Source: Rhodobacteraceae bacterium (ex Bugula neritina AB1) (GTDB taxonomy: Bacteria > Pseudomonadota > Alphaproteobacteria > Rhodobacterales > Rhodobacteraceae). From it: DNA of 59,439 bases. The notes under the pieces were generated by a model. The model was not told where the DNA came from. It saw only the letters and a program-made list of their open reading frames with translations, and did not search any database. The stretch covers positions 1 to 59,439 of the forward strand of contig MDLF01000034.1 in NCBI GenBank assembly GCA_001730095.1, in the 5' to 3' direction. This document shows positions 44,851 through 58,818 of this stretch, one piece after another. The position numbers and the translations under genes are program-made. Numbering within the stretch: position 1 is the first letter of the stretch; the number at the start of each line of letters is the position of its first letter.

Positions 44851-45810
44851 TCAGCCCTGCCAAGTGGCGCCGGCCGGGTCGTCTGTTGCGGTGATGCGGT
44901 AAAGGCCAGCCTGCCCGGTCATCGACGGCGCGGCGCTGTAGCTTTCACCGGGCAGGACCAGCGCTGTGTCGCCGTTGGACAGGGTGGTTTCGACATCGTT
45001 GATAGTAATGCGCCAATGGCCGCTGGCGGGCATCAGCACCACCGGCTTATCCGCCCTGACCTGATCCGCCACGGCAGAACCGCGGGCCAAAAAGTCGACC
45101 TCAAAACCCGGCTTGTCCTTGATCAGGCCGTTCTCGCCGATAACCACAGCCGGTTTACCAGCCGCCAGCGCCATCAGGTCCCAGTAGCGGGCGACATATT
45201 TGCCAATGACATCTTCCACCGGCACCTCGGGGTAGGCTTGCAGCTGCTCTTGGGTCAGCACTGGCATCGGTTGCACGTTGTGCGGCAGTTCCTGGCCTTT
45301 CTTGCTGTCATAAAGCACGCCGTTGTTGCCCAGCATCAGGCCGTGGGCCTGCGCATCTTCGATCACCTGTGGGGCCCAGGTGACGCCGCCGCCGGCATCA
45401 TCGCCGCCCAGGACCGCCATGATCATGCCGTAGTCCTGGCCGACGTTTTCAAAGCCGCGGAAGATACCAGTGGGGATGTTGAAGATGTCGCCCTCTTCGG
45501 CGATGAATTCGCCAGCGGTGCCGTGCAAACCCCAGAAAAACCGCCAGCGCCCCTTGGCGACGAAAAACACCTCAGCCGTGGTATGGGAATGCAGCGAGTT
45601 TCGGCACTTCGGCGGCTGGCCTGCCGCACCGATGTTGAAGCCGATGTTGTCAGTGATGTGGACATGCTGATCCGGGGATTCCGAGACGCCGCCGCCAATG
45701 ATGGTGAAGTTTTCTTTTTGGTCCGAGCCCGGAGTATGGGCGTCGATGAAGGCAGTTTTGCAGGGTTTCAATTCGCCGTAGCGAACGATGCGGGACTGAA
45801 TGGTGCTCAT
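44851..45810 (-). CDS. Bicupin protein
   Basis: 319 residues from ATG 45810, with AAGGA upstream. The N-terminal cupin has metal-binding-type residues in RNSLHSHTTAEVFFVAKGRWRFFWG and GDIFNIPTGIFRGFEN. A second cupin-like segment lies near the C terminus (VVLMPASGHWRITINDVETTLSNGDTALVLPGE). Such bicupins may be dioxygenases, isomerases or sugar-modifying enzymes; no specific family signature was recognised. It is the last gene of the long operon starting at 56298, separated from the gene before it by a 22-base-loop hairpin. Confidence 0.75.
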   Translation of the reverse strand: MSTIQSRIVRYGELKPCKTAFIDAHTPGSDQKENFTIIGGGVSESPDQHVHITDNIGFNIGAAGQPPKCRNSLHSHTTAEVFFVAKGRWRFFWGLHGTAGEFIAEEGDIFNIPTGIFRGFENVGQDYGMIMAVLGGDDAGGGVTWAPQVIEDAQAHGLMLGNNGVLYDSKKGQELPHNVQPMPVLTQEQLQAYPEVPVEDVIGKYVARYWDLMALAAGKPAVVIGENGLIKDKPGFEVDFLARGSAVADQVRADKPVVLMPASGHWRITINDVETTLSNGDTALVLPGESYSAAPSMTGQAGLYRITATDDPAGATWQG

Positions 45811-45826
45811 GGGTTTTCCTTGGTGT

Positions 45827-45870
45827 GCCGGGATAAAAGAGGTGTAGGAGAGACCCTCATTTATCCCGGC
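45827..45870 (-). other. Intercistronic inverted repeat upstream of the bicupin gene
   Basis: GCCGGGATAAA and TTTATCCCGGC are exact 11-bp inverted arms with a 22-base spacer, 17 bases before the bicupin ATG. It may be an mRNA hairpin or a protein-binding site; there is no T-tract. Confidence 0.55.
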
Positions 45871-45971
45871 GGCCGCAGGTTCAGCCGGCGTGCGCGCAGC
45901 GAGGCACGGTGCCGGTGATAGCGGCAAGTGGACTGCCGGTTATCCAGCAGATATGCGCCGAACGTAATCAT

Positions 45972-46961
45972 CTAAAGCGCGCCCGTGTGCAGCAGGATCT
46001 GCTTTTGTACTGCGGTTTCGTCAAACAATGTCCATTCACGACGCAGCTTGATATCGCCGCCAACCAGCGCGCCCCATTCGGCGTGGCTGATGCCCAGCAC
46101 ATATAGATCAGCGCCCGAAGGTGCGCCCAGGCTGCCCCAGCCGTCATGCGTGCCGTGCAGGCTCCAGCGAAGCGCAGAGCGCGGCGGCATGTTGGGATCA
46201 TCGCGGCCGATCTGGTGGTGGATTGTGAACTTGGCCGAAGGCAGCGAGGCCCGCAGTCCCATCCAGAAACGTTCCACAGGGTCGAAACTGTGGCCGGTGG
46301 CGCCGCCGGGATACTCAGATTGCACTGCCCGGTCGTATTCGGATTTGATAGCGGTCATGTCGGCATTCATGATCCGGGTCAGCAGATCGGCGTGACGCTG
46401 TCCCCATGGATTGTCGTTGCCGCGCCCTTTGTAGGGGCCCTCCAGATCATTGTCAGGTGTCAGCGGTTTGATGCAAGCCTCTGGGCCGCCTTCACGGGCG
46501 ATCTGATCGCGGGAGAACGCCACCGGATCCCAGCCCATCTGCCGCACCACGGCGCCGTTGTCGCGGATCAGCCATTCATCGTCGATGGCATTGTTGCGCG
46601 CGTGGCAATCTGCCAGAATCCGGTAGACCAGCGGCTTGCCGGTGGCCTTGCCAAAGGCACCGTCGCCCAGATGGGTTGCGGTCGACAGAATGCGGTGGCT
46701 GGACAGCATCCCCGCTTCCGGGCTGCCGGACCAGATCACGTCCTCCCCCAACAGGGTCCGGTCCGGAAACTCCGACAGCGTTGCCATGGTCGCGGCAATC
46801 ACCCCCTGATTGCCAGTAGAAACTGATCCGGGCATGCGCACCACGATTTGGGGCGCGTAGTAGTCATGCAAAGTGGCAAAGCCGCGGCTTTCCCAGATTT
46901 CATGGGTGATCCCGATGATGTAATCGGGGAAGTCGCGGAATTTCGGGTCAAAACCCTTCAT
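45972..46961 (-). CDS. NTF2/SnoaL-like protein (A)
   Basis: About 329 residues. The N-terminal half (DYIIGITHEIWESRGFATLHDYYAPQIVVRMPGSVSTGNQGVIAATMATLSEFPDRTLLGEDVIW) is a SnoaL-type ester-cyclase-like fold. The second half (RFWMGLRASLPSAKFTIHHQIGRDDPNMPPRSALRWSLHGTHDGWG) is another, so the protein looks like a double domain. The start at 46961 overlaps the LacI stop as ATGA and has AAGGA 8 bases upstream; a second ATG 9 bases earlier has no room for a ribosome site. SnoaL-fold proteins catalyse aldol-type cyclisation, isomerisation or hydrolysis; the reaction here is unknown. It differs from the other three in the cluster. Confidence 0.72.
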   Translation of the reverse strand: MKGFDPKFRDFPDYIIGITHEIWESRGFATLHDYYAPQIVVRMPGSVSTGNQGVIAATMATLSEFPDRTLLGEDVIWSGSPEAGMLSSHRILSTATHLGDGAFGKATGKPLVYRILADCHARNNAIDDEWLIRDNGAVVRQMGWDPVAFSRDQIAREGGPEACIKPLTPDNDLEGPYKGRGNDNPWGQRHADLLTRIMNADMTAIKSEYDRAVQSEYPGGATGHSFDPVERFWMGLRASLPSAKFTIHHQIGRDDPNMPPRSALRWSLHGTHDGWGSLGAPSGADLYVLGISHAEWGALVGGDIKLRREWTLFDETAVQKQILLHTGAL

Positions 46962-47986
46962 GAGGTCCATCCTTTGGGTATGCGCGCCGAGCCGCGCACG
47001 ATCAGCGGCCCGTCTATCGCAACCCGTCTTGGGTTGGCGGTTTCGGGAGTGGCGATGTGCTCCATCAGCGCAGCAACGGTTTCATCGACCATCAGATTGG
47101 CACGCTGGCGCACAGTCGTGAGATTATAGGCAGGCCAACCAGCAGGCGGCACATCATCATAACCGATGACAGAGACATCGCCGGGCACGGACAGGCCAAG
47201 TTCAAAGCGGATCACATCCATGACTGCCAGCGCCATGTGGTCATTGGCAACAAAGACAGCATCGGGGCGCTTCTGAGCAGGCCGGGAAAACATCTTGCGG
47301 GCAGCTTCGCGGGCGGTCTCGGTGTGAAACTCGCCATTTTCGCGGCAATGCATATCCGCGCCCGCATCGTGAAGGGCTGCCAGAAATCCGGCCTCGCGGT
47401 CACGCTGGGTCGAGGCCCCCTCCCAGCCGGCGATATAGCCGATCCGCTGATGGCCGCCTGCCAGCAGGAACTCCGCTGCCTTGCGCCCGCCGGCATAGTT
47501 GTCTGACGTGACAGAGGTAATACCCGCGATATCCTGGGACCGGTTGAACAGCACCATCGGCACGCCCGCGTCCTGGCAGCGCCGCGCGATATCAGAGGAC
47601 ATGGCGACAGAGGCGGTGACGATGCCATCTACCTGATAGTCCAGGATTTCCTCCATGACATCCTCGACATTGCCGGAAGTTTGCGAGGCCAGAAAGACCA
47701 GCACATGATAGCCATGTTCCTGCAGCGCGTTCGACAGCTTCTCAATGGCTTCGGGATAGAACTGGTTTTCCAGATAGGCCACTACCAGCCCAATGATGCG
47801 CGAACGCCCCGACACCATGGCGCGGGCCAGAACATTGGGGCGATAGCCCAGCTCAGCGGCCGCTTTCCTGACTTTGTCGGTGGTCTTTTTACTGACCGAC
47901 GCGCCGGGGGTGAACACGCGTGACACAGCCGACTGGCTGACGCCCGCGCGTTCCGCGACCTGAAGAGAGGTGACCTTCTCTGCCAT
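46958..47986 (-). CDS. LacI-family transcriptional regulator of the catabolic cluster
   Basis: About 342 residues. The N-terminal LacI HTH is TSLQVAERAGVSQSAVSRVFTPGASVSKKTTDKVRKAAAELGYRPN with the hinge helix LARAM, followed by a periplasmic-binding-protein-like effector domain (IIGLVVAYLENQFYPEAIEKL ... VFVANDHMALAVMDVIR ... VSVIGYDD). The start at 47986 overlaps the SDR stop as TGATG. It is embedded in the operon it probably controls. Two 16-bp palindromes of LacI type lie in the divergent promoter at 56330-56399. Confidence 0.93.
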   Translation of the reverse strand: MAEKVTSLQVAERAGVSQSAVSRVFTPGASVSKKTTDKVRKAAAELGYRPNVLARAMVSGRSRIIGLVVAYLENQFYPEAIEKLSNALQEHGYHVLVFLASQTSGNVEDVMEEILDYQVDGIVTASVAMSSDIARRCQDAGVPMVLFNRSQDIAGITSVTSDNYAGGRKAAEFLLAGGHQRIGYIAGWEGASTQRDREAGFLAALHDAGADMHCRENGEFHTETAREAARKMFSRPAQKRPDAVFVANDHMALAVMDVIRFELGLSVPGDVSVIGYDDVPPAGWPAYNLTTVRQRANLMVDETVAALMEHIATPETANPRRVAIDGPLIVRGSARIPKGWTS

Positions 47987-48750
47987 CAATCCGCCGTCCA
48001 TCCGCCGTCGATCAGCATCGAGGTGCCAGTGACCATGCCCGAGGCAGGCGAGGCCAGATAGAGCACCGCCCCCATGATGTCTTCGACCTCGCCGATGCGG
48101 TCCAGCTTGATCTTGCCCATGATCCAGGCTGCGCGCTCCGGGTTGGCAAAGGTCTGTTCAGTGAGCGGCGTCCTGATGAAGGTCGGACAAACGGTGTTGA
48201 TCCGCACCCCCGATTTGCCCCACTCGATGGCCATGGATTTGACCATGCCCTCCAGTCCGTGTTTGGAGGCGCAGTAGACCGCCCGGTCGATGCCCCCGAC
48301 ATGGCCCATCTGGCTGGAGATATGGATGATCGAACCGCGCTTTCCTGCGCTGATCATCGCCTGCGCCGCCCAGGCCGACAGGAAATAGGCCGAGCGCAGA
48401 TTGACGCCCATCACCGCGTCGAAGTCTTCGGGCTGTGTTTCTGCGGCAGGGCCATGGCGCGCCAGACCTGCCGAGTTCACCACCACGTCAAATGCGCGGG
48501 TTTCCAGCACTGACCGCAACGCCGCGAGATCGGCCTGATCCAGCACCAGGGCCTCTGCTGATCCCCCTTCGGATTTCAACGCTTCAACAGACTCCTGCAA
48601 CCGCTGCGCCCCCCGTGCGGCGCAAACAACATGCGCGCCAGCCTGCGCCAATGCTGCGGCACAGCCCTGACCGATGCCAGAGGAGGCGCCGGTGACCAAA
48701 GCGGTCTGTCCAGTCAGATCAAAAGAAGGGGTGCGAGGCAGCTTGGGCAT
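47986..48750 (-). CDS. Short-chain dehydrogenase/reductase
   Basis: 254-residue classical SDR. The cofactor motif is TGASSGIG (TGxxxGxG), NSAGLA is the NAG-like motif, the catalytic Ser lies in IIHISSQMGHVGG, and Tyr-x-x-x-Lys is YCASK. It begins with a TGATG overlap with the gene upstream. An NAD(P)-dependent alcohol oxidation or ketone reduction on the cluster's substrate is expected. Confidence 0.92.
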   Translation of the reverse strand: MPKLPRTPSFDLTGQTALVTGASSGIGQGCAAALAQAGAHVVCAARGAQRLQESVEALKSEGGSAEALVLDQADLAALRSVLETRAFDVVVNSAGLARHGPAAETQPEDFDAVMGVNLRSAYFLSAWAAQAMISAGKRGSIIHISSQMGHVGGIDRAVYCASKHGLEGMVKSMAIEWGKSGVRINTVCPTFIRTPLTEQTFANPERAAWIMGKIKLDRIGEVEDIMGAVLYLASPASGMVTGTSMLIDGGWTAD

Positions 48751-49817
48751 CAGGTCATTCCATCCGGTATTGCTATAGGACCCATGTTGCGGGCCTTGTT
48801 GAACTCGCGCAGCCGGGCCAGGACGTCAACGCCCAGCTGCCGATAGACATCCAGAAGATCCACCAGCACCCAGTTCTCGCGGATCAGCCCGTTCTCCAGC
48901 CGCCAGAAGTCGAGCGACCGAAGTTCGATCTGTTTGCCTGCAGCCGCAATCCCCAGCCAGCCGTCGTGGCTGAGGGTCTGGCGCATGTTGGGCCAGCCGG
49001 TGACCGCAGCATAAGGACCGTCACCAAAGAAATGGAAGGTAAGATCGCAAGCATTCTGCCCCCGGTCCGGCATCGCATTCAGAAACGGGATCTGATGCCA
49101 GTTGCGAAACCCGGCAATGCCCCGGGCCGTGCCAATGCCCGCAGGCCCGTACCAGTTCATCCGCGGGTGCCAGAACCGCTCCATCTGCATCACATCCGGC
49201 CCGCCCTGACCGGGATAGCGCTGCAGATGCTCCAGCATCTCCAGAACCAGATTGCAGCTGGCGGTACTTTGGCCCGCGTCCCAGGGACCGGTCCGCAACC
49301 CGTCCTGAGCAGCAGGGCCGGGCACCTGCCACTCGCGCCCCAGCGAAGGCGCCATCGGCCAGGCTTTGGCCTGCATCATCACTTCCGGAATATCCCAGAG
49401 CGCCTGCACCTCAGCGACTTTTCCCTCTTCAAAGCGATAGAACTCATGAAACCGCATCGCCGCCTGATGGCCCGTCGGCGGGATATCCAGCCAGGGTGTC
49501 AGAAACGTTCCAGTATAATAGCCGCCGCAGCCGACCCAGTCGAAACCATGTTCGTCGCGGCCCGCCATAACAATATAGTCGCGCCGCTCCAGATCTGGCC
49601 AGGCCGCTGCAAGCGGCGCATAGGCAGTGTCATACAGCGCAGCCGGACCAGTCAGATCCCCAAGCGGATGGCAAAGATGGACAGCTGCATCCGCCGCAAA
49701 AACAGCGTCCAAGGCTGCACGCACAGGGGCCGCAGCGAAATCGCGCATCACCGCCCGCAGCGGCGCCAGGCGCGCCGTGTTGCCGCTATGTACGTCCGTT
49801 TCCTTCGCTGACTGCAT
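48750..49817 (-). CDS. Two-domain NTF2/SnoaL-like protein (B)
   Basis: About 355 residues from ATG 49817 (weak AGAAAGAAG upstream). Both halves look like SnoaL/NTF2 domains: the first runs through AVHLCHPLGDLTGPAALYDTAYAPLAAAWPD, and the second begins RFWHPRMNWYGPAGIGTARGIAGFRNWHQIPFLNAMPDR and ends ENWVLVDLLDVYRQLGVDVL. The second half closely resembles the second half of protein D (56472) and the single-domain protein C (51284). No function can be assigned beyond the fold. It overlaps the SDR start by one base (TGATG). Confidence 0.75.
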   Translation of the reverse strand: MQSAKETDVHSGNTARLAPLRAVMRDFAAAPVRAALDAVFAADAAVHLCHPLGDLTGPAALYDTAYAPLAAAWPDLERRDYIVMAGRDEHGFDWVGCGGYYTGTFLTPWLDIPPTGHQAAMRFHEFYRFEEGKVAEVQALWDIPEVMMQAKAWPMAPSLGREWQVPGPAAQDGLRTGPWDAGQSTASCNLVLEMLEHLQRYPGQGGPDVMQMERFWHPRMNWYGPAGIGTARGIAGFRNWHQIPFLNAMPDRGQNACDLTFHFFGDGPYAAVTGWPNMRQTLSHDGWLGIAAAGKQIELRSLDFWRLENGLIRENWVLVDLLDVYRQLGVDVLARLREFNKARNMGPIAIPDGMT

Positions 49818-49896: not shown

Positions 49897-51228
49897 CTAT
49901 TCGCCGACCTCGCGGTAAGCTGCCGCCTCTCCGTAAGGCACATTGATGCCACCATAGCGGCGCACCCGGACGTTGCACTGCTCGGCATGGCCGACAAACC
50001 CTTCCAGCATGCACAGCCGCGAACCGTATTCGCCAATCAGAGTTGCCGCCTCATCGGTCAGGACCTTCTGATAGCTATGGGTCTTCAGATATTTTCCGAC
50101 CCACAACCCGCCAGTATAGCGGCCCGCCTTCTTGGTCGGCAGCGTGTGGTTGGTGCCAATCACCTTGTCCCCGTTGGAGACGTTGGTGCGGGCACCCAGG
50201 AACAACGCACCATAGCAGGTCATGTTCTCCAGGAACCAATCGTCGCGGTCGGTCATTACCTGAACATGCTCCGAGGCGATATCATCCGCCACCTGCAGCA
50301 TCTCGTCATAGGTGTCGCAGACGATGACCTCGCCATATTCCTCCCAGGAAACCTTGGCAGTGCCGGCCGTCGGCAGCACACCCAAAAGGCGGTCCACCTC
50401 GGACAGGGTTTCTTCAGCCAGCTTGCGGGAGTTGGTCAGCAGCACACAGGGGCTGTTGTAGCCGTGCTCAGCCTGGCCCAGCAGGTCGGTTGCGCATAGT
50501 TCCGCATCGGCGGCGGTTTCATCTGCAATGACCATGGTCTCGGTCGGACCAGCAAAAAGGTCGATGCCGACACGGCCGAACAGCTGGCGTTTGGCCTCGG
50601 CCACAAAGGCATTGCCGGGGCCGACCAGCATATGAACGGGGTCGATGGTTTCGGTGCCGATTGCCATCGCGCCGATCGCCTGAATGCCGCCCATCACATA
50701 GATTTCATGGGCACCGCCCAGATGCATGGCGGCAATGACAGCCGGGTTTGGTTTGCCGTTGAAAGGCGGGGTACAGGCGATGATGCGTGGCACGCCAGCC
50801 ACCGAGGCGGTTGCAACCGACATATGGGCCGAGGCCACCATCGGGAATTTACCGCCGGGCACATAGCAGCCCACGGATTGAACCGGGATGTTCTTGTGGC
50901 CCAGGATCACGCCAGGCAGGGTCTCGACCTCGATGTCCAGCATCGAGTCGCGTTGTGCTTGGGCGAAGTTGCGCACCTGCGCCTGGGCGAATTTGATGTC
51001 CGCCAGCTCGCGGTCGCTCAGCTGGGCGATCAAAGCGTCGATCTCCTGCTGGCTGAGACGGAAGGAGGCGGGGGAGTAGTTGTCGAACTTCTCGGAAAGC
51101 GCGCGCACCGCCGCGTCGCCGCGGGTGTCGATGTCTTTCAGCGTGGCTTCCACCACGGTGCGGGTCTTGGCGTCGTCCACGGCCCGGTCGGCCTCTGGTT
51201 TGCCGCGTTTCAGATATTCAATGGTCAT
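49897..51228 (-). CDS. HisD-family zinc dehydrogenase, second paralogue
   Basis: 443-residue NAD-dependent dehydrogenase of the histidinol dehydrogenase family. Visible metal/catalytic positions: GQAEHG, the Glu-His pair in ASEHVQV, Asp and His in [24 protein letters not shown], and the C-terminal His in [15 protein letters not shown]. It ends differently from the paralogue at 30892 and has a longer C terminus. It is part of the ABC importer/SnoaL operon, so it most likely oxidises a primary alcohol of the imported compound to an acid, as HpsN does with dihydroxypropanesulfonate. No his genes are near. Confidence 0.85.
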
Positions 51229-51283: not shown

Positions 51284-51814
51284 TCACTTGTCCGGGCTGG
51301 GAGCCGTCTTGTCTCCGCGGTCATAAGCTTCCCAGCCTTCGCCGTTGAACACATCGACACCCAGCTGGGCCGCGACATGGGCAAAGTCCACATTGACCCA
51401 GTTGTCGACGATCTTGCCGTCGACAACTTTCCAAAAGTCCATGTAGCGGATCTCGACCCGTTTGCCGGTGGCCTCAATACCCAGGAACCTGCCCGAGTGG
51501 GTGGCTTCCTGACGACCAAAGGCGGCGGCCCATTCCCCCATGTAAAGGCGGGCCTCGTCGATGCAGACTTTGTCTGAAAACGCCGCCTGGAACGGGCGCT
51601 GCCAGTTGTCCTGGAATTCCTTCAGCCCCGTTTTCGTGCCACAGCCCTGGTTGCCCAGCCAGCGGAAGCCTTCGGAAAAGAATTCTCCGATGTCGTTGAT
51701 GCGGTGATCATTCAGACCGTCGACCATGCCTTCGATAACGCGGCGAGTGTCTTCGGTCTTGCTCATGTCCGTGTCTTTGGTCAGCACGGCCTGTTCGGGG
51801 CGGGAGCCCTTCAT
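51284..51814 (-). CDS. Single-domain NTF2/SnoaL-like protein (C)
   Basis: 176 residues; ATG 51814 has AAGGATAAG upstream. It is one SnoaL/NTF2 domain (FFSEGFRWLGNQGCGTKTGLKEFQDNWQRPFQAAFSDKVCIDEA ... DFWKVVDGKIVDNWVNVDFAHVAAQLGVDVF). It aligns by eye with the C-terminal halves of proteins B and D, sharing the W-x-G-x-x-G-x-G turn and the ending NW-x-x-x-D...GVD. It lies between the second permease gene and the HisD-like gene. Confidence 0.75.
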   Translation of the reverse strand: MKGSRPEQAVLTKDTDMSKTEDTRRVIEGMVDGLNDHRINDIGEFFSEGFRWLGNQGCGTKTGLKEFQDNWQRPFQAAFSDKVCIDEARLYMGEWAAAFGRQEATHSGRFLGIEATGKRVEIRYMDFWKVVDGKIVDNWVNVDFAHVAAQLGVDVFNGEGWEAYDRGDKTAPSPDK

Positions 51815-51947: not shown

Positions 51948-52829
51948 TCACCCTTTCACCGCGCCTGCGGTCAGGCCGCTGACGATCTGGCGCTGGAAGA
52001 ACATCACCAGCACGAACAGCGGGGCGGTGGCAGAAACCACGGCGGCAACCGCGAACATCACGTTGCCTTCTTCCAGGGTGGAGCCGAGGAAGCCCGCAAT
52101 GGCAGGAACCATGGTACGGTTTTCCTCGCTCAGCAGCATCGCGGTGACAGCAAAATCGTTGTAGGCCAGCAAGAAGGAAAACAGGCCGGTGGTGATGACG
52201 CCGGGCCACATCACCGGAATGATCACATGGCGGAAAGCCTGGAACTGGGTACAACCGTCAACCTTGGCGCTTTCGTCCAGATCCTTGGGGATGTTCAAAA
52301 AGAAGGAGTGCAGCATCCACAGGGTGAAAGGCTGGTTGATTGCCACCAGCACGATGATCGAGGTGGGCAGATGCCCCCAGAGGTTCCACTCGAAGAAGGG
52401 CAGCAGATAGCCGGAGACCAGCGTGATATGCGGCATGGCACGGAACACCAGGGCGATCATCAAGAGCCAGAAGGCGTAGTTGTGGCCCGAGCGCGCCAGT
52501 GCATACCCGCCCAGCGTGCCGAAGGTCAGCGAGATGACCACAGTAAAGAAGACGACGATCATCGTATTGATCGCGGCCCGCCAGAACTCTTCCTGGATCC
52601 AAGCGCCTTCATACCCGGCGCCGGTGAAGGTGCCGCCGGCCTCGATCATCGTGCGGGTGCCCCACAGCGCGTTGCGCCAGTCGGCCTTGGAAAAGAAGTC
52701 AGCCTGCACCTTGAACGAGCCCCAGAGGGTCCAGATGAAGGGGAAAGACGCAATCACCACCCACAGGAGGACAAATACCGACGAAAAGATGATGACAGAG
52801 CGGGAGGAGCGGTTTGCAATGCTGGACAT
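51948..52829 (-). CDS. Carbohydrate-type ABC transporter permease (MalG/UgpE-like)
   Basis: 293-residue inner-membrane permease of the CUT1 family with six hydrophobic helices. The EAA motif is LDESAKVDGCTQFQAFRHVIIPVMWPGV. It starts with a one-base TGATG overlap with the other permease gene. With its partners it forms an importer for a sugar, polyol or glycerol-phosphate-like compound. A 133-base gap without a gene separates it from protein C. Confidence 0.92.
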   Translation of the reverse strand: MSSIANRSSRSVIIFSSVFVLLWVVIASFPFIWTLWGSFKVQADFFSKADWRNALWGTRTMIEAGGTFTGAGYEGAWIQEEFWRAAINTMIVVFFTVVISLTFGTLGGYALARSGHNYAFWLLMIALVFRAMPHITLVSGYLLPFFEWNLWGHLPTSIIVLVAINQPFTLWMLHSFFLNIPKDLDESAKVDGCTQFQAFRHVIIPVMWPGVITTGLFSFLLAYNDFAVTAMLLSEENRTMVPAIAGFLGSTLEEGNVMFAVAAVVSATAPLFVLVMFFQRQIVSGLTAGAVKG

Positions 52830-53857
52830 CAGGCAGCCTTTCCTTTGAAGTCGCGCCAGGTGCGGACAAGTACCGGAGAAAGCAGGATCGCCACGCCGAT
52901 GACAGTCAGCACCGATGTCGCTGCGGCTGAATTGAAACGGGTGATGTCGCTGCGCATATCAGCAAAGATGATATAGGACAGCGACGTCGCATTGGCCTGG
53001 GCAGAGAAGCCGACAATCGGCTCGAACACCCGGAAGTTATCCATCAGCTGGATCAGCGAGATAAACACCACCAGCGGTGTCAGATGCGGGATCACCACAT
53101 AGCGGATGCGCTGCCAGCGGGTGGCGCCGTCGATCATCGCCGCCTCGATCGAATCCGAGTTCACGGTTTGAAGCCCGGCATAAAAGACCACGAAGGCAAA
53201 CGGAGCCGAGCTCCAGACGCCATAGACCATCAGTGTGATCCAGGTCAGCACCGGCGATGCCTTCAGCGACAGATCCGGGTCGTCAAACAGCCACTGCAGA
53301 GTTTTGCCAATCACCCCTTGCGCGTCGATCATCCAGAACAGGATCAGCGACCCGATCAGCGGCGTGATGATCATCGGCAGCAGGGAAACAAATATGGTTG
53401 GCCCCTTCAGCACTGGCGTCAGCCGGTTGACACCAAGGGCGATCATCAGCCCCAGCACGATCACCAGCGGCGTCACCAGGAAGGTATAGGTCAGCGTGAA
53501 GGCCAGCGCCTTGTAGAACGGCAAGTTGTAGAGTGCGGAGAAGAACCCGCCCAGGCCGTCCCGGCTGCGCCAGGCCTCGGCAACCTCGGCGGTGGCCAGA
53601 TGGCCGCGGTCGAAATAAGTGGTCAGGCCGGCAAAGCGGCCCAGTGGCTGTTCAGCGCGCAATGCGGCAGTGGCCTCGGTATCGACAGAGCTTTCCTCGG
53701 TGCAGCCGAACGGGCCGCAGTTTTCGGTGGTCACGATCACCTGCTCATGTTCGATGTGGAGCGACTGTATCACAACCGATACCAGCGGCAGCGCAATGAA
53801 GAGGATCATCGCTGCCAGGCTGGGCAGAATGAACCAGAAGAACGTTTTATGGCGCAT
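52829..53857 (-). CDS. Carbohydrate-type ABC transporter permease (MalF/UgpA-like)
   Basis: 342-residue CUT1-type permease. After the first helix it has a periplasmic loop of about 90 residues (with the possible disulfide ENCGPFGCTEESS), then the remaining helices and the EAA motif IEAAMIDGATRWQRIRYVVIPHLTPLV. It follows the binding-protein gene after 72 bases containing a hairpin. Confidence 0.92.
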   Translation of the reverse strand: MRHKTFFWFILPSLAAMILFIALPLVSVVIQSLHIEHEQVIVTTENCGPFGCTEESSVDTEATAALRAEQPLGRFAGLTTYFDRGHLATAEVAEAWRSRDGLGGFFSALYNLPFYKALAFTLTYTFLVTPLVIVLGLMIALGVNRLTPVLKGPTIFVSLLPMIITPLIGSLILFWMIDAQGVIGKTLQWLFDDPDLSLKASPVLTWITLMVYGVWSSAPFAFVVFYAGLQTVNSDSIEAAMIDGATRWQRIRYVVIPHLTPLVVFISLIQLMDNFRVFEPIVGFSAQANATSLSYIIFADMRSDITRFNSAAATSVLTVIGVAILLSPVLVRTWRDFKGKAA

Positions 53858-53886
53858 CTCGGAATGTCCCCTAGTCGGGTGGCTGA

Positions 53887-53913
53887 GGCAGAGCCGGCAT
53901 CCCCGGCTCCGCC
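53887..53913 (-). other. Hairpin after the binding-protein gene of the sugar-type importer
   Basis: GAGCCGG / CCGGCTC with outer GGC / GCC pairs forms a stem of about 10 bp interrupted by one mismatch. It lies just downstream of the binding-protein stop and, like 22229-22256 and 28513-28537, probably favours expression of the binding protein. Confidence 0.6.
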
Positions 53914-53929
53914 TGCATGAGCGGTTTCC

Positions 53930-55165
53930 TTAGTTCAGGAAGCCTTTTTCTTTGGCTGCGGCGACATAGGACGCCTCAGCATCGGCCAGAGCCTGTTCCG
54001 CAGATTCAGAACCTTGCAGGAACTCGGTCAGTTCAGCCCCCAGCGCGGTGTGCATCAGGCCCATGAAAGGGATCATCGGATAGGGCTTGGTGCCGCCAGT
54101 TGCCGTGGCCGAAACCCCTGCAGAGGCCGGCGAGGGTTCATAGCCTTTGACCAGCCAGACGGCAGCGTCGTTATTGGCCTTCACGACCTCGGGGCTGATG
54201 CCGTTCACCATCGCAACAAAGCTTGCCTCGGCATCTTCGTCGCTGACATTGCTGGCAATGACAAATCCGTCCCACCACAGCGTAGACGCCGGGGTGCTGC
54301 CGCCACCGACGGTCGGCGAGGCGATGAGAGCCGTGTTGCCGACGATCTCTGCAGTGGAGCCTTCGTCGTCCAGAATGCCAGTGCCGCGCGACCCCCACAG
54401 ATGGGCCATCGCCACCTCACCTGCTTCCCAGGAAGCCTGGACCGCATTGGAATCGAAAGTCAGGTAGTCGGGGTTGGACAGCGCCACCAGCTCCTTCAGC
54501 GTGTTCAGCGCTGCAACACCGGTCTCGTTGTTGACATTCGGCTCAGCGGTGCCCGGTTTAAAGAAGCTGCCGCCGTGGCCGAGGTACATGTTCACAAACT
54601 CCTGCGCCAGATCCCAGCCGGTTTTGCTGGTGGTGGCAAAGGGGTACTGCAACAGGCCTGCGTCTTTGATCGCCTTGCCTGCCGCAATCACCTCTTCATA
54701 GGTCTGCGGAGCTTTGACACCGGCTGCCTTCAGGATGTCTTCGCGGATGAACAGGTGCTGGGCGTTGGCCATAAAGGCAACGGCCATGACCTTGCCGTCA
54801 ACGGTGATCATCTGGCTTTTGCTGAGATGCTGACCGTGTTTGGCGATCAGCTCATCCAGTGGGCGGATCAGGTCGCTGTTCAGCAGCGGTACAATGGCTG
54901 CGTTGGTTGTGGTGACCGCCGTGTATTGCGCCGGATTGGCGGTCAGCGCAGCCACCTGCAGCTCGCGGTAGTCCTTGTTCAGGTTGCTTTCCACCGTCAC
55001 GCCATCGCCAGCACATTGCTTGGCGCCTTCGGCAACCGCCTGAATGGCGGCGAATTCATTGCCGAGAATGCTGACGTTGCCGCCGCTAAGACCGCAGCCC
55101 GCGTAGGCGGTTGTGCCCAAGAACACAGCCGCAGCGCTTAGAATGAATTTGCTCTTGATCGACAT
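53930..55165 (-). CDS. Sugar-type periplasmic substrate-binding protein
   Basis: About 411 residues from ATG 55165, with GGGAGG upstream. It has a Sec signal peptide (MSIKSKFILSAAAVFLGTTAYA). The mature protein is a family 1 (UgpB/MalE-type) binding protein: GGNVSILGNEFAAIQAVAEGAKQ, AQHLFIREDILKAAGVKAPQTYEEVIAAGKAIKDAG, and FATTSKTGWDLAQEFVNMYLG. It is the second gene of the operon, after the ATPase gene. The ligand is unknown. Confidence 0.9.
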   Translation of the reverse strand: MSIKSKFILSAAAVFLGTTAYAGCGLSGGNVSILGNEFAAIQAVAEGAKQCAGDGVTVESNLNKDYRELQVAALTANPAQYTAVTTTNAAIVPLLNSDLIRPLDELIAKHGQHLSKSQMITVDGKVMAVAFMANAQHLFIREDILKAAGVKAPQTYEEVIAAGKAIKDAGLLQYPFATTSKTGWDLAQEFVNMYLGHGGSFFKPGTAEPNVNNETGVAALNTLKELVALSNPDYLTFDSNAVQASWEAGEVAMAHLWGSRGTGILDDEGSTAEIVGNTALIASPTVGGGSTPASTLWWDGFVIASNVSDEDAEASFVAMVNGISPEVVKANNDAAVWLVKGYEPSPASAGVSATATGGTKPYPMIPFMGLMHTALGAELTEFLQGSESAEQALADAEASYVAAAKEKGFLN

Positions 55166-55245
55166 AGTTTCCTCCCTGTTTCGGGCCACAAAAAAGGGTT
55201 TGGCCCGGTGTGCCTTCTCTGCATGCAGGATGGCGTTGCGCTGGA

Positions 55246-56298
55246 TCAGTTCTCCAGCCGCGCACCGCTCCCAGCCTGGAAGAGGTGGCAGATTTCCCTG
55301 GGCACCGAGAGCGAAACCATATCGCCAATCTCGGCCCGGAAGCTTTTGTCCGCCTTGACAGAGACCAGGGCACCGCCGACGCGGACCGAGATCATGGTGG
55401 CATCACCCAGCAGTTCAAGCGTGTAGATCGGGGCGTTGATCTGGCCGCTGCCGCCGGCTGCCAGGCCCGCGTCTTCGGCACGAAAACCCAGCGTCAGGGG
55501 GCCATCTGTTACGGACAGCCCACCAATCTCGACGTTCTCGGCACGGAACACGCCACCGGCGACCTCGCCGTCCATCAGGTTCATCGCCGGAGAGCCGATG
55601 AAACTGGCAACAAAGGTGTTGGCGGGGCGGTCGTAGATTTCAGTCGGAGCGCCGACCTGCTGGACCACGCCTTTCTTCATCACCACAACCCGGTCAGCCA
55701 GCGTCATCGCCTCGATCTGGTCATGAGTCACATAGATGGTGGTGGCCTGCAGGTCATGGCTGAGGTTCTTGATCTGGGCGCGGGTAGAGACCCGCAGCTT
55801 GGCATCAAGGTTGCTGAGCGGCTCATCCATCAGGAAAACCTTGGGCTTACGCACGATGGCCCGGGCCAGGGCCACACGCTGGCGCTGACCGCCCGACAGC
55901 TCGGCAGGCTTGCGATGCAGGAAGTCACGCAGCTCTACCCGGTCGGCGGCCTGCATGACGCGTTCATCATGGGTGGCCGGGTTAATGCCGCGCACCTTCA
56001 GCGGAAAGCGGATGTTCTCGTAGACATTCATGTTGGGATAAAGCGCGTAGGACTGGAACACCATCGCCACATCGCGGTCCTTGGGGTCGAGATCATTGAC
56101 CACCTCACCGTCGATCCGGATCTCGCCGTCAGTGACATCCTCCAACCCTGCGATCATCCGCATGGTGGTGGTCTTGCCGCAACCCGAAGGGCCAAGCAGC
56201 ACCAGGAACTCCTTGTCAGCAATCGTCAGGTCAAAGTTTTCAACCCCCACGAAGCTGCCCCAGCGCTTGCCTACATTGCGTAACTGAATCTCGGCCAT
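55246..56298 (-). CDS. Sugar-type ABC transporter ATPase (UgpC/MalK-like)
   Basis: 350-residue CUT1 ATPase and first gene of the long minus-strand operon. Walker A is LGPSGCGKTTT, the signature LSGGQRQRVALARAI, Walker B VFLMDEPLSNLD, the H-loop YVTHDQIEAMTLADR, and a TOBE regulatory domain follows from about residue 240. The start has GGGAGG upstream. Its promoter shares the 173-base divergent region with the facing SnoaL-like gene and contains the two LacI-type operators. Confidence 0.94.
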   Translation of the reverse strand: MAEIQLRNVGKRWGSFVGVENFDLTIADKEFLVLLGPSGCGKTTTMRMIAGLEDVTDGEIRIDGEVVNDLDPKDRDVAMVFQSYALYPNMNVYENIRFPLKVRGINPATHDERVMQAADRVELRDFLHRKPAELSGGQRQRVALARAIVRKPKVFLMDEPLSNLDAKLRVSTRAQIKNLSHDLQATTIYVTHDQIEAMTLADRVVVMKKGVVQQVGAPTEIYDRPANTFVASFIGSPAMNLMDGEVAGGVFRAENVEIGGLSVTDGPLTLGFRAEDAGLAAGGSGQINAPIYTLELLGDATMISVRVGGALVSVKADKSFRAEIGDMVSLSVPREICHLFQAGSGARLEN

Positions 56299-56329
56299 TC
56301 CGCTGCTCCCTCCCCAGGAGAATCACTAT

Positions 56330-56345
56330 TTGCATACGTTTGCAA
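56330..56345. promoter_or_regulatory. LacI-type operator 1 (imperfect)
   Basis: TTGCATACGTTTGCAA is a 16-bp palindrome with one mismatched pair and the central CG typical of LacI-family sites. It is 32 bases upstream of the ATPase gene start. Confidence 0.75.
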
Positions 56346-56383
56346 AAGTGTATTCCTGTGGCACGAAATCTGGCAAGACATTT

Positions 56384-56399
56384 TTGCATACGTATGCAA
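56384..56399. promoter_or_regulatory. LacI-type operator 2 (perfect palindrome)
   Basis: TTGCATACGTATGCAA is a perfect 16-bp palindrome with central CG. Its centre is 54 bp from operator 1, about five helical turns, which would allow looping or cooperative binding by the LacI protein encoded at 46958-47986. Confidence 0.82.
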
Positions 56400-56471
56400 T
56401 ATTGCTGGAAAGGCGATGATTCACTTCGGCACACACAGCCGGGAAATCGTTGAATAGAAAGGAATTTTGCA

Positions 56472-57473
56472 ATGGGCTTTCAAGCCGAAAAGCAGGTGGT
56501 GCGCAACTTCTACCACGCTCTGGATCAGGCAGCGGTAGCGGAGGTGCCAACTGTTATGGCGCAGCATTGCAGCCCGGATCTGCTGTGGCGCGGCTTTCAC
56601 CCCTTTGGCGAAATTCGCGGCGCTGAGGACGTTGGCGCGCAATTCTGGGTGCCGCTGCGGCAGAACCTGACCCGCTTGCAGCGCCGTATTGATGTGTTTT
56701 TTGCCGGGCAGAACCGATATGATGATCCGGGCGGTGTTTGGGTCTGCTCGATGGGGCATCTGATGGGGCTGCATGACGGGCCCTGGCTGGGTATCCGCCC
56801 GACCCGAAAAATGGCGTTCTTGCGTTACTGCGCCTTTCACCGGGTCGAAGGTGGCAGGATCACCGAAACCGCGATGTATTTCGACATCCCACATCTGATG
56901 CTGCAAGCCGGACTGCAGCCCTTCCCGGTCGAGACCGGCGCACAGCTGGTGCAGCCGGGACCGATGACACATGACGGTCTGCTGTTTGCCGCGCAGCCGG
57001 AGGAAGAGGGCACCAGAACCCTGGCAGCCATCGAAGCCATGATTGCCGATCTGGGGCAATGGGACAGCAAAATGGCGCTGGAAGAGGAGCTGGCCCGCAC
57101 CTGGCATGACGATATGATCTGGTGGGGGCCCTCTGGCATCGGTGCCACCTATACGATCGAACGCTATGCAAAGCAGCACTCTGGACCGTTCCGGGCCGCC
57201 TTCACCGAGCGGTCCAAGACCGGTCACCTGTGCCGTATGGCAGAAGGACACTATGGCGGGTTTTTCGGCTGGCCGAACTTCACCGCCCGCCATACCGGCG
57301 GCTTCATGGGGATGCCCGCCACCGGCAAAACCGGCGAGTTTCGGGTGATCGACATCTACCGGCGGCACGAAGACAAGCTGGCGGAAAACTGGATTTTTAT
57401 CGACCTGCTGCACTTCTGGCATCAGCAGGGCGTGGATATTCTGGGACGGACAACAGGGATTGAACAGCCATGA
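56472..57473 (+). CDS. Two-domain NTF2/SnoaL-like protein (D)
   Basis: 333 residues; ATG 56472 has AAAGGA upstream. Domain one covers about residues 5-165 (VVRNFYHALDQAAVAEVPTVMAQHCSPDLLWRGFHPFGEIRGAEDV ... DIPHLMLQAG). Domain two covers about 190-330 (DDMIWWGPSGIGATYTIERYAKQHSGPFRAAFTERSKTGHLCRMAEGHYGGFFGWPN ... ENWIFIDLLHFWHQQGVDIL). Each has the SnoaL-like order of helices, a W-x-G turn, and a terminal aromatic-D...GVD strand. It is divergent from the importer operon and overlaps the amidohydrolase start by 4 bases. It is the counterpart of protein B; enzymatic role unknown. Confidence 0.77.
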   Translation: MGFQAEKQVVRNFYHALDQAAVAEVPTVMAQHCSPDLLWRGFHPFGEIRGAEDVGAQFWVPLRQNLTRLQRRIDVFFAGQNRYDDPGGVWVCSMGHLMGLHDGPWLGIRPTRKMAFLRYCAFHRVEGGRITETAMYFDIPHLMLQAGLQPFPVETGAQLVQPGPMTHDGLLFAAQPEEEGTRTLAAIEAMIADLGQWDSKMALEEELARTWHDDMIWWGPSGIGATYTIERYAKQHSGPFRAAFTERSKTGHLCRMAEGHYGGFFGWPNFTARHTGGFMGMPATGKTGEFRVIDIYRRHEDKLAENWIFIDLLHFWHQQGVDILGRTTGIEQP

Positions 57474-58360
57474 TCGTCGACGCGCATCACCATCTCTGGG
57501 ACCTGCAGGCGGTGCATTACCCCTGGCTGATGGAAGTCGGCGCCCGGCGGTTCTTTGGCGACCCGACACCAATCCAGCGGAATTACCTGATCGAGGAATT
57601 CCGCAAGGATGCCGCAGCCCTGGGCGCCGGGGCTTCGGTGCATATCCAGGTTGGGGCAGCCGATGGCTGGCAGGAGGCACAGTGGGTCGACAGCATAGCC
57701 CGTGCCAATCCGGACTGGGTGATGGCGCAGGTCGTGTTCTGCGATTTGACTGCACCGGACCGGGACGCGCAACTGGACCGGTTCCAAAGCCTGTCCACGG
57801 TGCGCGGCACCCGCCAGATCGTCGGGCGGGCGCCGGGCGAGGACGCTTTGACCGGCACCAATACGCTGCTGGATGATCCCCGGTTTCTGGACGGACTGCG
57901 CGAGCTGGGACGGCGCGGCCTGTCCTTTGATCTGCAATTGCTCCCCGAACTGATGGCAAAAACCGCTACGGTGCTGGCCCAGGCGCCGGAAACACAGGTG
58001 GCCCTGTGCCACGCAGGATCGCCGCATGACAGGAGCCCGGCGGGCATCGCCGCCTGGACGCAGGCGCTGCGACATCTGTCTGCGCTACCAAACGTCACCT
58101 GCAAGCTGTCCGGCCTGGGCATGTTCGACCATGGCTGGACCCAGGACAGCATCCGCCCGCTGGTCGAAACCTGCCCGCGCCAATTCGGCCCTGATCGCTG
58201 CATGTTCGGTTCCAACTTCCCCGTCGACAGCCTGTCTTCGGATTACACTGCGCTTGCCAAGGCCTACCGCGCGCTTGTCCCACCAGAGCAGCATGCCATG
58301 GTTTTCGGCACAACAGCTGCGCGGTTCTATGGCCTGGCACAGCCAGCACAGAAGGGGTGA
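57470..58360 (+). CDS. COG3618-type TIM-barrel lactonase/amidohydrolase
   Basis: 296-residue amidohydrolase-superfamily barrel. The N-terminal metal motif is VDAHHHLWDLQAVHYPWL, with later His in LCHAG and Asp in MFGSNFPVD. Family members include 2-pyrone-4,6-dicarboxylate lactonase and sugar lactonases such as L-fucono-1,5-lactonase. A lactonase next to two dehydrogenases in an importer cluster suggests hydrolysis of an oxidised, lactone-form intermediate. ATGA overlap with the upstream gene shows coupling. Confidence 0.85.
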   Translation: MIVDAHHHLWDLQAVHYPWLMEVGARRFFGDPTPIQRNYLIEEFRKDAAALGAGASVHIQVGAADGWQEAQWVDSIARANPDWVMAQVVFCDLTAPDRDAQLDRFQSLSTVRGTRQIVGRAPGEDALTGTNTLLDDPRFLDGLRELGRRGLSFDLQLLPELMAKTATVLAQAPETQVALCHAGSPHDRSPAGIAAWTQALRHLSALPNVTCKLSGLGMFDHGWTQDSIRPLVETCPRQFGPDRCMFGSNFPVDSLSSDYTALAKAYRALVPPEQHAMVFGTTAARFYGLAQPAQKG

Positions 58361-58362
58361 AA

Positions 58363-58818
58363 ATGGTCTTCAGCTTTGAAACAAATGTCCTGCCCGAGTG
58401 GATCGATTACAACGGCCACATGCGGGACAGCTATTATGGGCTTGTCTTCAGCCTGGCGGTTGATGCCTTTCAGGATGAGGTCGGATTTGATGCGGCCTAC
58501 CGCAAACGCACCGGCTGCACCATTTATCTTCTGGAGGATCACAAATTCTTCCTCCGCGAGGTCAAGGAAGGCACCCGCATCCGGATCGAAACTCGGATCA
58601 TCGGATGCGACCACAAACGGTTTCATCTGCACATGCAGATGTTCGACGGCACTGCCTTGGCCAGTGTAGGCGAGTTCATGGAATTGCACGTGTGCCAGCA
58701 CCCCCAACCACACGCGATGGCCATGCCCGAAGAGATCTTGCAAAAGCTTTTGTCCTCCCGGCTGTCTGAAGGAGAGGCAGCAGCCCTGCCCGGACAATCA
58801 CGCCGCCTGTCACTTTAG
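58363..58818 (+). CDS. Hotdog-fold acyl-CoA thioesterase (FcbC / betainyl-CoA thioesterase-like)
   Basis: 151-residue 4-hydroxybenzoyl-CoA thioesterase-like protein. The active-site Asp region is VLPEWIDYNGHMRDSYYGLVFSLAVDAF, followed by YLLEDHKFFLREVKEGTRIRIETRIIG. The pattern recalls the betainyl-CoA thioesterase of carnitine catabolism, though the other carnitine genes are absent. The ATG at 58363 is chosen, with AAGGGG 5-6 bases upstream; a GTG at 58357 overlapping the previous stop is possible. It ends the rightward operon. Confidence 0.83.
   Translation: MVFSFETNVLPEWIDYNGHMRDSYYGLVFSLAVDAFQDEVGFDAAYRKRTGCTIYLLEDHKFFLREVKEGTRIRIETRIIGCDHKRFHLHMQMFDGTALASVGEFMELHVCQHPQPHAMAMPEEILQKLLSSRLSEGEAAALPGQSRRLSL

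Follow-up and report, generated by a model that had tools for sequence, protein, structure and literature searches.

A widespread LacI-controlled gene cluster rich in SnoaL-fold proteins, possibly for the breakdown of mycosporine-like amino acids

A contig of 59,439 nucleotides from Rhodobacteraceae bacterium (ex Bugula neritina AB1) (MDLF01000034.1; this whole stretch is hereafter called the window) carries two divergent operons that encode a sugar-type ATP-binding cassette (ABC) importer, a LacI-family repressor, four SnoaL-fold proteins, and a set of oxidising, hydrolytic and cleaving enzymes. An initial annotation had read these genes as a LacI-controlled catabolic unit, and the gene set, the conserved operators and the recurrence of the cluster in Rhodobacterales and rhizobia support that view. 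Behind them there is very probably a dedicated catabolic pathway that is widespread and apparently undescribed. Its substrates are proposed, with chances that appear about even, to be mycosporine-like amino acids (MAAs), such as shinorine, porphyra-334, mycosporine-glycine, and related compounds, or the cyclohexenone core of these. Algae, cyanobacteria, corals, and fungi all produce MAAs in large amounts. We infer the substrate, each reaction and the order of the steps from gene content, synteny, operators, linkage to a lyase, motif tests, and predicted folds.

In the proposed pathway, the importer would take up an MAA, and LacI, acting on two operators 54 bp apart, would repress both divergent operons until an MAA or a derivative is present. 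The SnoaL paralogues would successively hydrolyse the amino acids off the ring to leave 4-deoxygadusol, SnoA acting on a serine-type substituent and the other SnoaL proteins on glycine and further amines. A HisD-like dehydrogenase would then oxidise the ring CH2OH to COOH at the expense of 2 NAD+, and the 2-O-methyl group would either be removed by a MetE-like protein or leave as a methyl ester cut by an α/β hydrolase. The bicupin, with O2, would cleave the resulting cyclic enediol to 4-carboxy-4-hydroxy-2-oxoadipate (CHA, C7H8O8), which the RraA-like aldolase would split into pyruvate and oxaloacetate. MAAs were favoured as the substrate because they would account together for a releasable L-serine, several SnoaL paralogues, the oxidation of a CH2OH beside a carbinol, a demethylation, a bicupin resembling ring dioxygenases, and a pyruvate-releasing aldolase. 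4-Deoxygadusol has the formula C8H12O5, and the atoms balance exactly from there through the demethylated (C7H10O5) and oxidised (C7H8O6) intermediates to the O2 adduct C7H8O8, which equals pyruvate plus oxaloacetate. The features of the cluster are as follows.

42243-42938, minus strand: RraA-like protein, predicted pyruvate-releasing aldolase of the CHA type (Pfam RraA-like, 57.4 bits)
42938-43630, minus strand: α/β hydrolase, predicted esterase or C-C hydrolase that may free a methyl ester (Pfam Abhydrolase_6)
43627-44748, minus strand: MetE-like zinc methyltransferase of the cobalamin-independent methionine synthase II family, predicted O-demethylase (PF01717)
44851-45810, minus strand: bicupin, predicted ring-opening (enediol) dioxygenase
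45972-46970, minus strand: SnoD, two-domain SnoaL protein of a second type (PF07366, 47.5 bits; PF12680)
46958-48001, minus strand: LacI-family repressor of the cluster (PF00356 and PF13377), with a dedicated operator pair
47986-48750, minus strand: short-chain dehydrogenase/reductase (SDR), KduD-like (PF13561, 190.9 bits; TIGR01832 kduD, 204.3 against a cut-off of 338.85)
48750-49817, minus strand: SnoB, two-domain SnoaL protein (PF07366, 78.4 bits; NTF2-fold matches of its predicted structure)
49897-51228, minus strand: HisD-like protein, predicted four-electron alcohol dehydrogenase of a third specificity class with the motif GKFPM (PF00815, 437.6 bits)
51284-51814, minus strand: SnoC, single-domain SnoaL protein (PF07366, 72 bits; nearest structure 1sjw, E 3e-10)
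51948-52829, minus strand: ABC importer permease of the MalG type
52829-53857, minus strand: ABC importer permease of the GlcT/UgpA type
53930-55165, minus strand: CUT1-type solute-binding protein (sugar-binding-protein relatives in PDB, best 5iai, E 5e-16)
55246-56298, minus strand: UgpC-type importer ATPase (PRK11650, 447.1 bits, above the cut-off of 432)
56330-56345, no strand: predicted LacI operator 1, TTGCATACGTTTGCAA
56384-56399, no strand: predicted LacI operator 2, TTGCATACGTATGCAA, 54 bp from operator 1
56472-57473, plus strand: SnoA, two-domain SnoaL protein, a relative of which sits beside L-serine ammonia-lyase in Vibrio-type genomes (PF07366, 69.7 bits)
57470-58360, plus strand: COG3618-type amidohydrolase, apparently accessory (PF04909; NCBIfam fuconolactonase model below cut-off)
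58357-58818, plus strand: 4HBT_2 thioesterase, apparently accessory and sporadic (PF13279, 91.7 bits)

Open reading frame (ORF) calling and Pfam/NCBIfam profiles recovered all 14 ORFs of the initial annotation, with the same families and at approximately the same coordinates. Eleven lie on the minus strand (in order of transcription ATPase, solute-binding protein, two permeases, SnoC, HisD-like, SnoB, SDR, LacI, SnoD, and bicupin) and three, namely SnoA, the COG3618-type amidohydrolase and the 4HBT thioesterase, on the plus strand. The end that had been set at 44851 was too early. The minus-strand operon runs on through the MetE-like protein, the α/β hydrolase and the RraA-like protein, which brings the total to 17 genes and places the likely terminal-step aldolase beyond those limits. 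The same three genes trail the bicupin in Ruegeria and Octadecabacter records, and the last two do so in Paracoccus. Most junctions had also been said to overlap; overlaps do exist, but at only six of the 12 same-strand junctions among the 14 genes (8/15 when the three additional genes are counted). The remaining junctions have gaps of 55-161 bp, including 79 bp between the HisD-like and SnoB genes if SnoB starts at the ATG at 49817. These gene maps come from a longest-ORF caller with BLAST labels and no trained gene finder. RNA families and tRNAs gave no match at the thresholds used. The importer is of the CUT1 sugar type by family match only, with a UgpC-type ATPase, two permeases of the MalF/MalG superfamily, and a binding protein of the sugar-binding superfamily.

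Co-regulation of the two operons, which had only been assumed, is backed by the conservation of their operators. The divergent ATPase/SnoA promoter of the window contains the palindrome pair TTGCATACGTTTGCAA and TTGCATACGTATGCAA. A pattern derived from such divergent regions, allowing at most one mismatch, was scanned over the 66 of 80 SnoA loci that have this arrangement (the other 14 lack it). It predicted two sites in 55 regions and one site in the other 11; the spacing of the paired sites was 54 bp in 30 regions, 55 in 21, 56 in three, and 57 in one. The remaining 1,274,774 bases of the loci contained only three further sites. In 12 whole genomes, 23 distinct sites were present at 1-3 per genome, 22 of them in a SnoaL cluster or at most a few kb away from one, and a reversed-pattern control gave zero sites in the same genomes. 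One of the sites (G1188:C1:1486975) belongs to a second SnoaL/importer cluster (L200), and the single off-cluster site (G000:C1:46426) lies beside an aconitase-like gene (L201). A dedicated LacI regulon is the natural reading and is a well-supported prediction; the twin operators may perhaps act through DNA looping.

The 80 loci were taken from a SnoA scan of named genomes that returned at least 567 relatives (among at least 591 matches). They come mostly from Rhodobacterales, with SAR116 and Pseudovibrio in addition, the nearest among the matches listed being Leisingera aquimarina (SnoA 94%). The ordered block of HisD-like, SnoC, two permeases, binding protein, ATPase, and SnoA genes is kept in 64 of the 80, far beyond chance; many of the other 16 are broken at contig ends or rearranged. 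A search for the co-occurring set across Rhodobacterales and rhizobia, which the initial annotation had proposed, found it in both (Ensifer L018 and Rhizobium L022 for the latter), and it also appears in other Alpha- and Gammaproteobacteria, where other importers and aldolases take the place of those in the window. Nearly the whole set, with bicupin, hydrolase and RraA-like protein annotated, is present in Ruegeria sp. THAF33, Paracoccus alcaliphilus (without the MetE-like gene), and Octadecabacter arcticus (where the gene order is changed around a transposase). SnoA relatives occur in 23 plasmid records. At E<=1e-3, SnoB matched 7/21 sampled genomes of the genus, and SnoA or SnoB matched 38/385 of the class (28 with E<1e-40) and 29/398 of the phylum (22 with E<1e-39). 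Of the 198 family genomes sampled, 83 have the bicupin at E<=1e-20 (79 with E<1e-120, the rest being sister clades); among gammaproteobacterial genomes it was found in 8/274, two of these being half-length matches of another clade.

Gene content was tallied over the 34 loci, of 56 mapped and with the window excluded, that have both bicupin and HisD-like genes; the counts are lower bounds because many loci end at contig or stretch ends. SnoD was present in 33, LacI in 32, SnoB in 28, SDR in 25, the binding protein in 24, the ATPase and the hydrolase in 23 each, the MetE-like protein in 22, the RraA-like protein in 19, SnoC in 18, and SnoA in 17. An HpcH/HpaI-type aldolase was present in five, a sodium:solute symporter (SSS) in four, the amidohydrolase in four, a TonB receptor in three, and the thioesterase in none. 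TonB receptors and SSS symporters replace the ABC importer in several loci. Among loci L054-L133, the binding proteins form three groups by their identity to that of the window (43-47%, 51-68%, and 81-94%), whereas the HisD-like proteins stay at 77-98%. The importer genes vary far more than the enzyme genes do, and importer cassettes seem to have been exchanged, perhaps for different substrate variants. The amidohydrolase occurs in 49/80 loci (directly behind SnoA in 37) and the thioesterase in 13/80 (directly behind SnoA in 10). On these counts, and with the 34 loci reaching into other lineages, both look accessory. Two 1.4-Mb genomes (L144, L145) keep permeases, binding protein, SnoaL, HisD-like, SDR, bicupin, MetE-like, and RraA-like genes; LacI and the hydrolase were not seen in their mapped stretches.

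The cluster consists of two separable modules, a SnoaL module and a bicupin/aldolase module, a split that would be expected of a logic in which the substrate is first stripped and then cleaved. The SnoaL module stands alone in Phaeobacter piscinae (L023; binding protein, permeases, LacI, and three SnoaL proteins) and on a Vibrio pelagius plasmid (L019; NZ_AP025505.1; importer and four SnoaL proteins), and the haloarchaeon Halobellus limi has an importer, five SnoaL proteins, and a MetE-like gene. Conversely, L206 and L207 have bicupin, aldolase and hydrolase without SnoaL or HisD-like genes in the mapped stretch. These two belong to five sister loci (L204, L206, L207, L208, L210) in which a related bicupin is accompanied by RraA and/or HpcH aldolases and no HisD-like or MetE-like gene was mapped. 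L206 and L207 also have importer genes, L204 has an importer, L210 an ATPase and a hydrolase, and L208 a hydrolase, with SnoD and importer genes about 5 kb away. The sister-locus bicupins possibly act on a different enediol substrate. L206 adjoins genes for L-threonate dehydrogenase, OtnK, OtnC, and OtnI (the last just below its cut-off). An ascorbate-type bicupin substrate was not pressed, as this four-gene L-threonate set adjoins one of the five sister loci.

The HisD-like protein matches Pfam Histidinol_dh over its full length (437.6 bits, residues 16-422) and scores 419 bits against TIGR00069, above the cut-off of 243.8. Its nearest solved structures are HpsN dehydrogenases of 2,3-dihydroxypropane-1-sulfonate (DHPS; 8v35, 8wwe). 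As given in a section of a published study, GRY[AS]H, whose His126 binds the sulfonate, distinguishes HpsN from HisD, which has GSAPL (PMC11382572). The window protein has GKFPM, as do 85 of the 93 aligned proteins, itself included; the others have GKYPL (5), GKFPI (1), GKYPM (1), and GRYPL (1). Neither GRY[AS]H nor GSAPL occurs in any of the 93, the latter despite the TIGR00069 score. With both diagnostic motifs missing, the motif alignment therefore places the window protein in a third specificity class, neither HpsN nor HisD. The hps genes share with the cluster a HisD-superfamily enzyme for NAD-dependent alcohol-to-acid oxidation (predicted here), a marine Roseobacteraceae setting, and a KduD-like SDR nearby; the window differs in its GKFPM motif and in having the SnoaL set, the bicupin and the aldolase in the same cluster. 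A second HisD-like gene of the window, at 30892-32169 on the plus strand near a LysR gene (29766-30737), reads GRYSH and probably encodes a true DHPS dehydrogenase.

By Pfam, SnoA, SnoB and SnoD each contain two SnoaL domains and SnoC one, so that all four have the SnoaL/NTF2 fold. An AlphaFold 2 model of SnoB, built from position 49802, slightly inside the likely ATG at 49817 (mean predicted local distance difference test score 92.5), matches enzymes of the NTF2 fold, for the most part with a single domain per match; among them are polyketide cyclases, epoxide hydrolases, and PhzA/B (3juq, rank 50). PhzA/B forms C=N bonds on aminocyclohexenones, and SnoaL/PhzA/B-type enzymes act on cyclohexenone-like substrates. 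The fold is what the window proteins share with SnoaL/SnoaL2 polyketide cyclases and hydroxylases and with PhzA/B. Unlike the SnoaL cyclases, they are mostly fusions of two domains and belong to a catabolic operon. When aligned to nogalonic acid methyl ester cyclase, SnoC has V140 and D126 in place of Asp121 and His107, which we take to be the catalytic residues of the SnoaL cyclase, in that numbering; with both replaced, SnoC is unlikely to be a cyclase of this type. The presence of several SnoaL-fold proteins is supported as a hallmark of this catabolic unit.

Evidence on what the SnoaL proteins release comes from the Vibrio-type genus, where a SnoA relative (E<=1e-20) is present in 33 of 118 genomes. 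This genus is evidently Vibrio in a broad sense, since one of its SnoA hits (G1239:C3:112138-113136) shares its coordinates with the hit on the V. pelagius plasmid NZ_AP025505.1. Close relatives (E<1e-90) occupy 35 loci, of which 34 were tallied and the other is the V. pelagius plasmid copy; two genomes contribute a pair of loci, and the plasmid copy is among those four. The 34 loci have, no more than 8 kb from SnoA, LacI in 30, a porin in 24, a major facilitator superfamily transporter in 32, an SSS symporter in 32, and L-serine ammonia-lyase in 29. In 29/35 loci the lyase gene stands behind the SSS gene in the same orientation, and the SSS gene diverges from SnoA; the distance between lyase and SSS genes is -59 to +43 bp (with longest-ORF starts, and with an additional SSS fragment at 607). 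For the L162 lyase the score is 655 bits, above its cut-off of 345. These 29 modules have 22 distinct flank contexts, indicating that the linkage persists in varying neighbourhoods. It suggests that SnoA activity yields L-serine. The tallied loci without the lyase are L216, L218, L236, L240, and L243, the last being a compact version of the pathway with SSS, SnoB, SnoD, LacI, HpcH aldolase, HisD-like, SDR, bicupin, hydrolase, and SnoA genes. Because SnoaL proteins are the most widely kept and are paired with serine ammonia-lyase in these genomes, they probably act early, as predicted amino-acid-releasing hydrolases. The initial annotation had ordered the steps as oxidation of an alcohol to an acid or lactone, lactone opening, and only then SnoaL conversion. 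This order is not supported in that form; the amidohydrolase, missing in 31/80 loci, looks accessory, and the SnoaL proteins are placed early instead. The amidohydrolase is indeed a COG3618 superfamily member, but it scores 118.8 bits against the L-fuconolactonase model NF052480 (cut-off 400), so that 'lactonase' is a superfamily guess only.

The folds closest to the bicupin model include the ring-cleaving quercetin, gentisate, and salicylate dioxygenases; at 9-15% identity, among the matches listed, to quercetin 2,3-dioxygenase and to gentisate and salicylate 1,2-dioxygenases, the window protein differs from them in having Arg for the third metal-binding His. The MetE-like protein does not reach the methionine synthase cut-offs, and its H242, C244, E276, and C342, conserved in 18 aligned sequences, correspond to the His-x-Cys, Glu, and Cys zinc ligands of MetE-type enzymes. 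In the α/β hydrolase, S62, D182, and H210 are conserved in 17 aligned sequences. Among 19 loci in which the bicupin is at least 4 kb from both ends, ten have both the MetE-like protein and the hydrolase, five the hydrolase only, four the MetE-like protein only, and none neither; the L193 row is really one with both, as it shares a contig with L161 and its MetE-like gene lies just outside the stretch.

The RraA-like protein belongs to the RraA superfamily (PF03737), with R128 and D129 invariant in 15 aligned sequences, and a conserved Arg-Asp pair has a role in RraA-type aldolases. It is only remotely related to LigK/PcmE (TIGR02798, 31.8 bits against a cut-off of 304.5), and a PDB sequence search returned nothing at 1e-5. 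An HpcH/HpaI-type aldolase, nearest to GarL/HpaI, occurs in clusters L146, L163, L193, L243, and L251, whose mapped stretches contain no RraA-like gene; the two aldolase types occur together in L192 and L199. Genome-wide searches, for which three genomes with matches at 33-78% identity served as positive controls, found no close RraA relative in seven Vibrio-type genomes and remote ones only, on other contigs, in G195 and G410. The likely terminal step, judged from these families, is thus an aldolase of either the RraA or the HpcH type. RraA-family CHA aldolases act on 4-carboxy-4-hydroxy-2-oxoadipate, C7H8O8, which is formed in the lower protocatechuate 4,5-cleavage/gallate pathway (LigI, LigJ, LigK) and split to pyruvate and oxaloacetate. 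The cluster resembles that pathway in its RraA-family aldolase, its Amidohydro_2 enzyme, and CHA as the predicted common intermediate. It differs in the remoteness of the aldolase and in its importer and regulator, and no aromatic ring-cleavage gene was recognised in it.

Two lines of published work bear on the MAA proposal. According to a review, it was suggested by Dunlap and Shick that shinorine and porphyra-334 lose their hydroxyamino acids by hydrolysis in V. harveyi, which leaves mycosporine-glycine (PMC3083659). In MAA biosynthesis (desmethyl-4-deoxygadusol synthase, O-methyltransferase, ATP-grasp), as outlined in part of another article, the methyl group and then the amino acids are added to desmethyl-4-deoxygadusol, and the predicted pathway would reverse these last steps, with other enzyme families and in the catabolic direction (PMC10057719).

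Several observations weigh against MAAs as the substrate. The atom balance and the chemistry were composed after the enzymes were known, and the SDR, the amidohydrolase and the thioesterase have no firm place in the scheme. The dioxygenase matches of the bicupin fold tie with matches to oxalate decarboxylases and seed proteins, so that non-dioxygenases are among its top structural relatives. Ring-cleaving bicupin dioxygenases have three metal-binding His residues, and in the window family H74, H76, and E80 are invariant in 18 aligned sequences while the third metal position is an invariant R118. A close MetE-like protein is absent from 7/7 bicupin-bearing Vibrio-type genomes and from G195 (four control genomes were positive), and the demethylation step therefore cannot be universal; loss of the methyl as a methyl ester through the α/β hydrolase is a guess, and the never-neither count of these two proteins is not significant, about one 'neither' being expected. 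The synteny in Vibrio is partly shared ancestry. Serine ammonia-lyase matches number 3, 3, 3, 2, 1, 3, 2, 3, 3, 2, 3, 3, 3, and 2 in 14 genomes with SnoA and 1, 5, 1, 1, 3, 2, 2, 2, 1, 1, 2, 2, 2, and 2 in 14 without it (the 5 and one 3 include fragments), so that genomes with SnoA tend to have one extra lyase, a modest difference. In the alphaproteobacterial clusters no serine or glycine enzyme was recognised, not every such family having been searched. The V. pelagius locus lacks the lyase and is adjoined by sarcosine oxidase subunits and purU (L019 2406-8572); this could mean that the substrate is N-methylated or that an N-substituted glycine, for instance mycosporine-glycine, is processed. 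Finally, the KduD-like SDR would suit a sugar-acid pathway, and galactonate-dehydratase-like genes of the enolase superfamily, under their cut-offs, lie near the cluster in 2/44 mapped loci (L144 114-1244, L172 17883-19115).

Another amino-acid-bearing, polyol-like substrate, such as a different serine or glycine conjugate, a glycerol-ether or betaine head group, or an O-methylated aminocyclitol, could be processed by the same logic of stripping, oxidation and cleavage. This is possible but rather unlikely. The lyase linkage suggests release of L-serine and nothing more specific, and there are hints of one-carbon or N-methyl chemistry in the sarcosine oxidase and purU of L019 and in an aminomethyltransferase encoded near the cluster of Halobellus. 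Such a substrate would by itself leave four SnoaL paralogues, the ring-dioxygenase-like bicupin and the C7H8O8-type aldolase unexplained, and no other candidate known to us is as abundant in seas, salterns, and soil. An N-methyl/sarcosine pathway as such was dropped, the sarcosine oxidase standing beside one plasmid copy only, as was a carnitine/betaine route suggested by the resemblance of the thioesterase to a carnitine dehydrogenase tail, since the thioesterase is present in 13/80 loci.

A non-phosphorylative sugar or sugar-acid pathway is improbable. It would combine CUT1 uptake, SDR and HisD-like oxidation, COG3618 lactone opening, a dehydratase (a SnoaL protein, the bicupin or an enolase-type neighbour), and a 2-keto-3-deoxy-acid aldolase, close to the logic of the initial annotation. 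The importer and the LacI regulator fit it, as do the COG3618 member behind SnoA in 37/80 loci, the KduD-like SDR (under its cut-off), the GarL/HpaI-related aldolases, the galactonate-dehydratase-like genes of L144 and L172, and the bicupin sister clusters, one of which (L206) lies beside L-threonate genes. A dehydratase-like gene is nevertheless seen in only two of 44 loci and the amidohydrolase is missing in 31/80; the MetE-like protein is left unexplained and the serine ammonia-lyase has no place.

It is highly doubtful that the SnoaL proteins play an accessory part in binding or isomerisation and that the SnoA-SdaA linkage reflects a shared regulator rather than a shared substrate. The fold alone proves no hydrolase, and SnoC has V140 and D126 at the catalytic positions of the SnoaL cyclase; against this stand the 22 flank contexts of the 29 lyase modules and the minimal modules, which consist of importer genes and SnoaL proteins. 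A pathway for DHPS or another sulfonate, with the HisD-like protein as HpsN, has a barely appreciable probability and was dropped: the HpsN structures are nearest, the context is marine Roseobacteraceae, and HpsO was modelled on a 2-keto-3-deoxygluconate dehydrogenase in a passage of PMC11131964, which the KduD-like SDR would recall, but the sulfonate-recognising His of GRY[AS]H is missing in 93/93, so that the published motif contradicts this reading, and the window has its separate HpsN-type gene with GRYSH.

Around the cluster, an IS3-family transposase (58971-59429; 170.8 bits, cut-off 160) adjoins the plus-strand operon and fits a mobile island. A pyridoxal-phosphate aminotransferase (41013-42218), whose best model is GntC-like and well below cut-off, converges on the end of the minus-strand operon, and a nitrous-oxide reductase (nos) gene set (32199-40336, by ORF reading) lies at least about 2 kb past that end. 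Farther away are a type I restriction-modification system (hsdR, hsdS, hsdM; 10769-16738, by ORF reading) and a fusion of an FAD oxidoreductase with a GcvT-like domain (23832-26342), which resembles sarcosine and trimethylamine N-oxide demethylases below all cut-offs listed and has ABC importer genes nearby. In other genomes, a GMC-type oxidoreductase occurs in or near the cluster in L158, L176, and L179 (choline dehydrogenase-like in L179).

The initial annotation's statement that it knew of no characterised pathway with several SnoaL proteins beside a sugar-type importer held up, none being described in the literature searched. No paper on this cluster or on MAA-degrading genes was found there, subscription papers being mostly outside that search. 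To our knowledge the enzyme set has no match, and an importer with a repressor and catabolic enzymes is in itself a known kind of system; if the MAA proposal is true, the pathway itself would be new. It would then be, a prospect for which the case is evenly balanced, the first genetically defined complete route of MAA breakdown, in a large share of one marine family, in small-genome Alphaproteobacteria, in vibrios, and partly in a haloarchaeon. With the bicupin in 83/198 sampled genomes of the family, this would amount to a substantial unnoticed route of marine carbon and nitrogen. It would also reveal new chemistry of SnoaL-fold and HisD-like enzymes and provide better names for proteins annotated as 'ester cyclase' or 'histidinol dehydrogenase'. 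The prediction offers single-step optical assays, namely loss of absorbance at about 334 nm, a rise at about 310 nm, and release of serine. Even if MAAs prove to be the wrong substrate, the cluster and its dedicated operators offer a clear starting point for finding an unknown, probably common, substrate.

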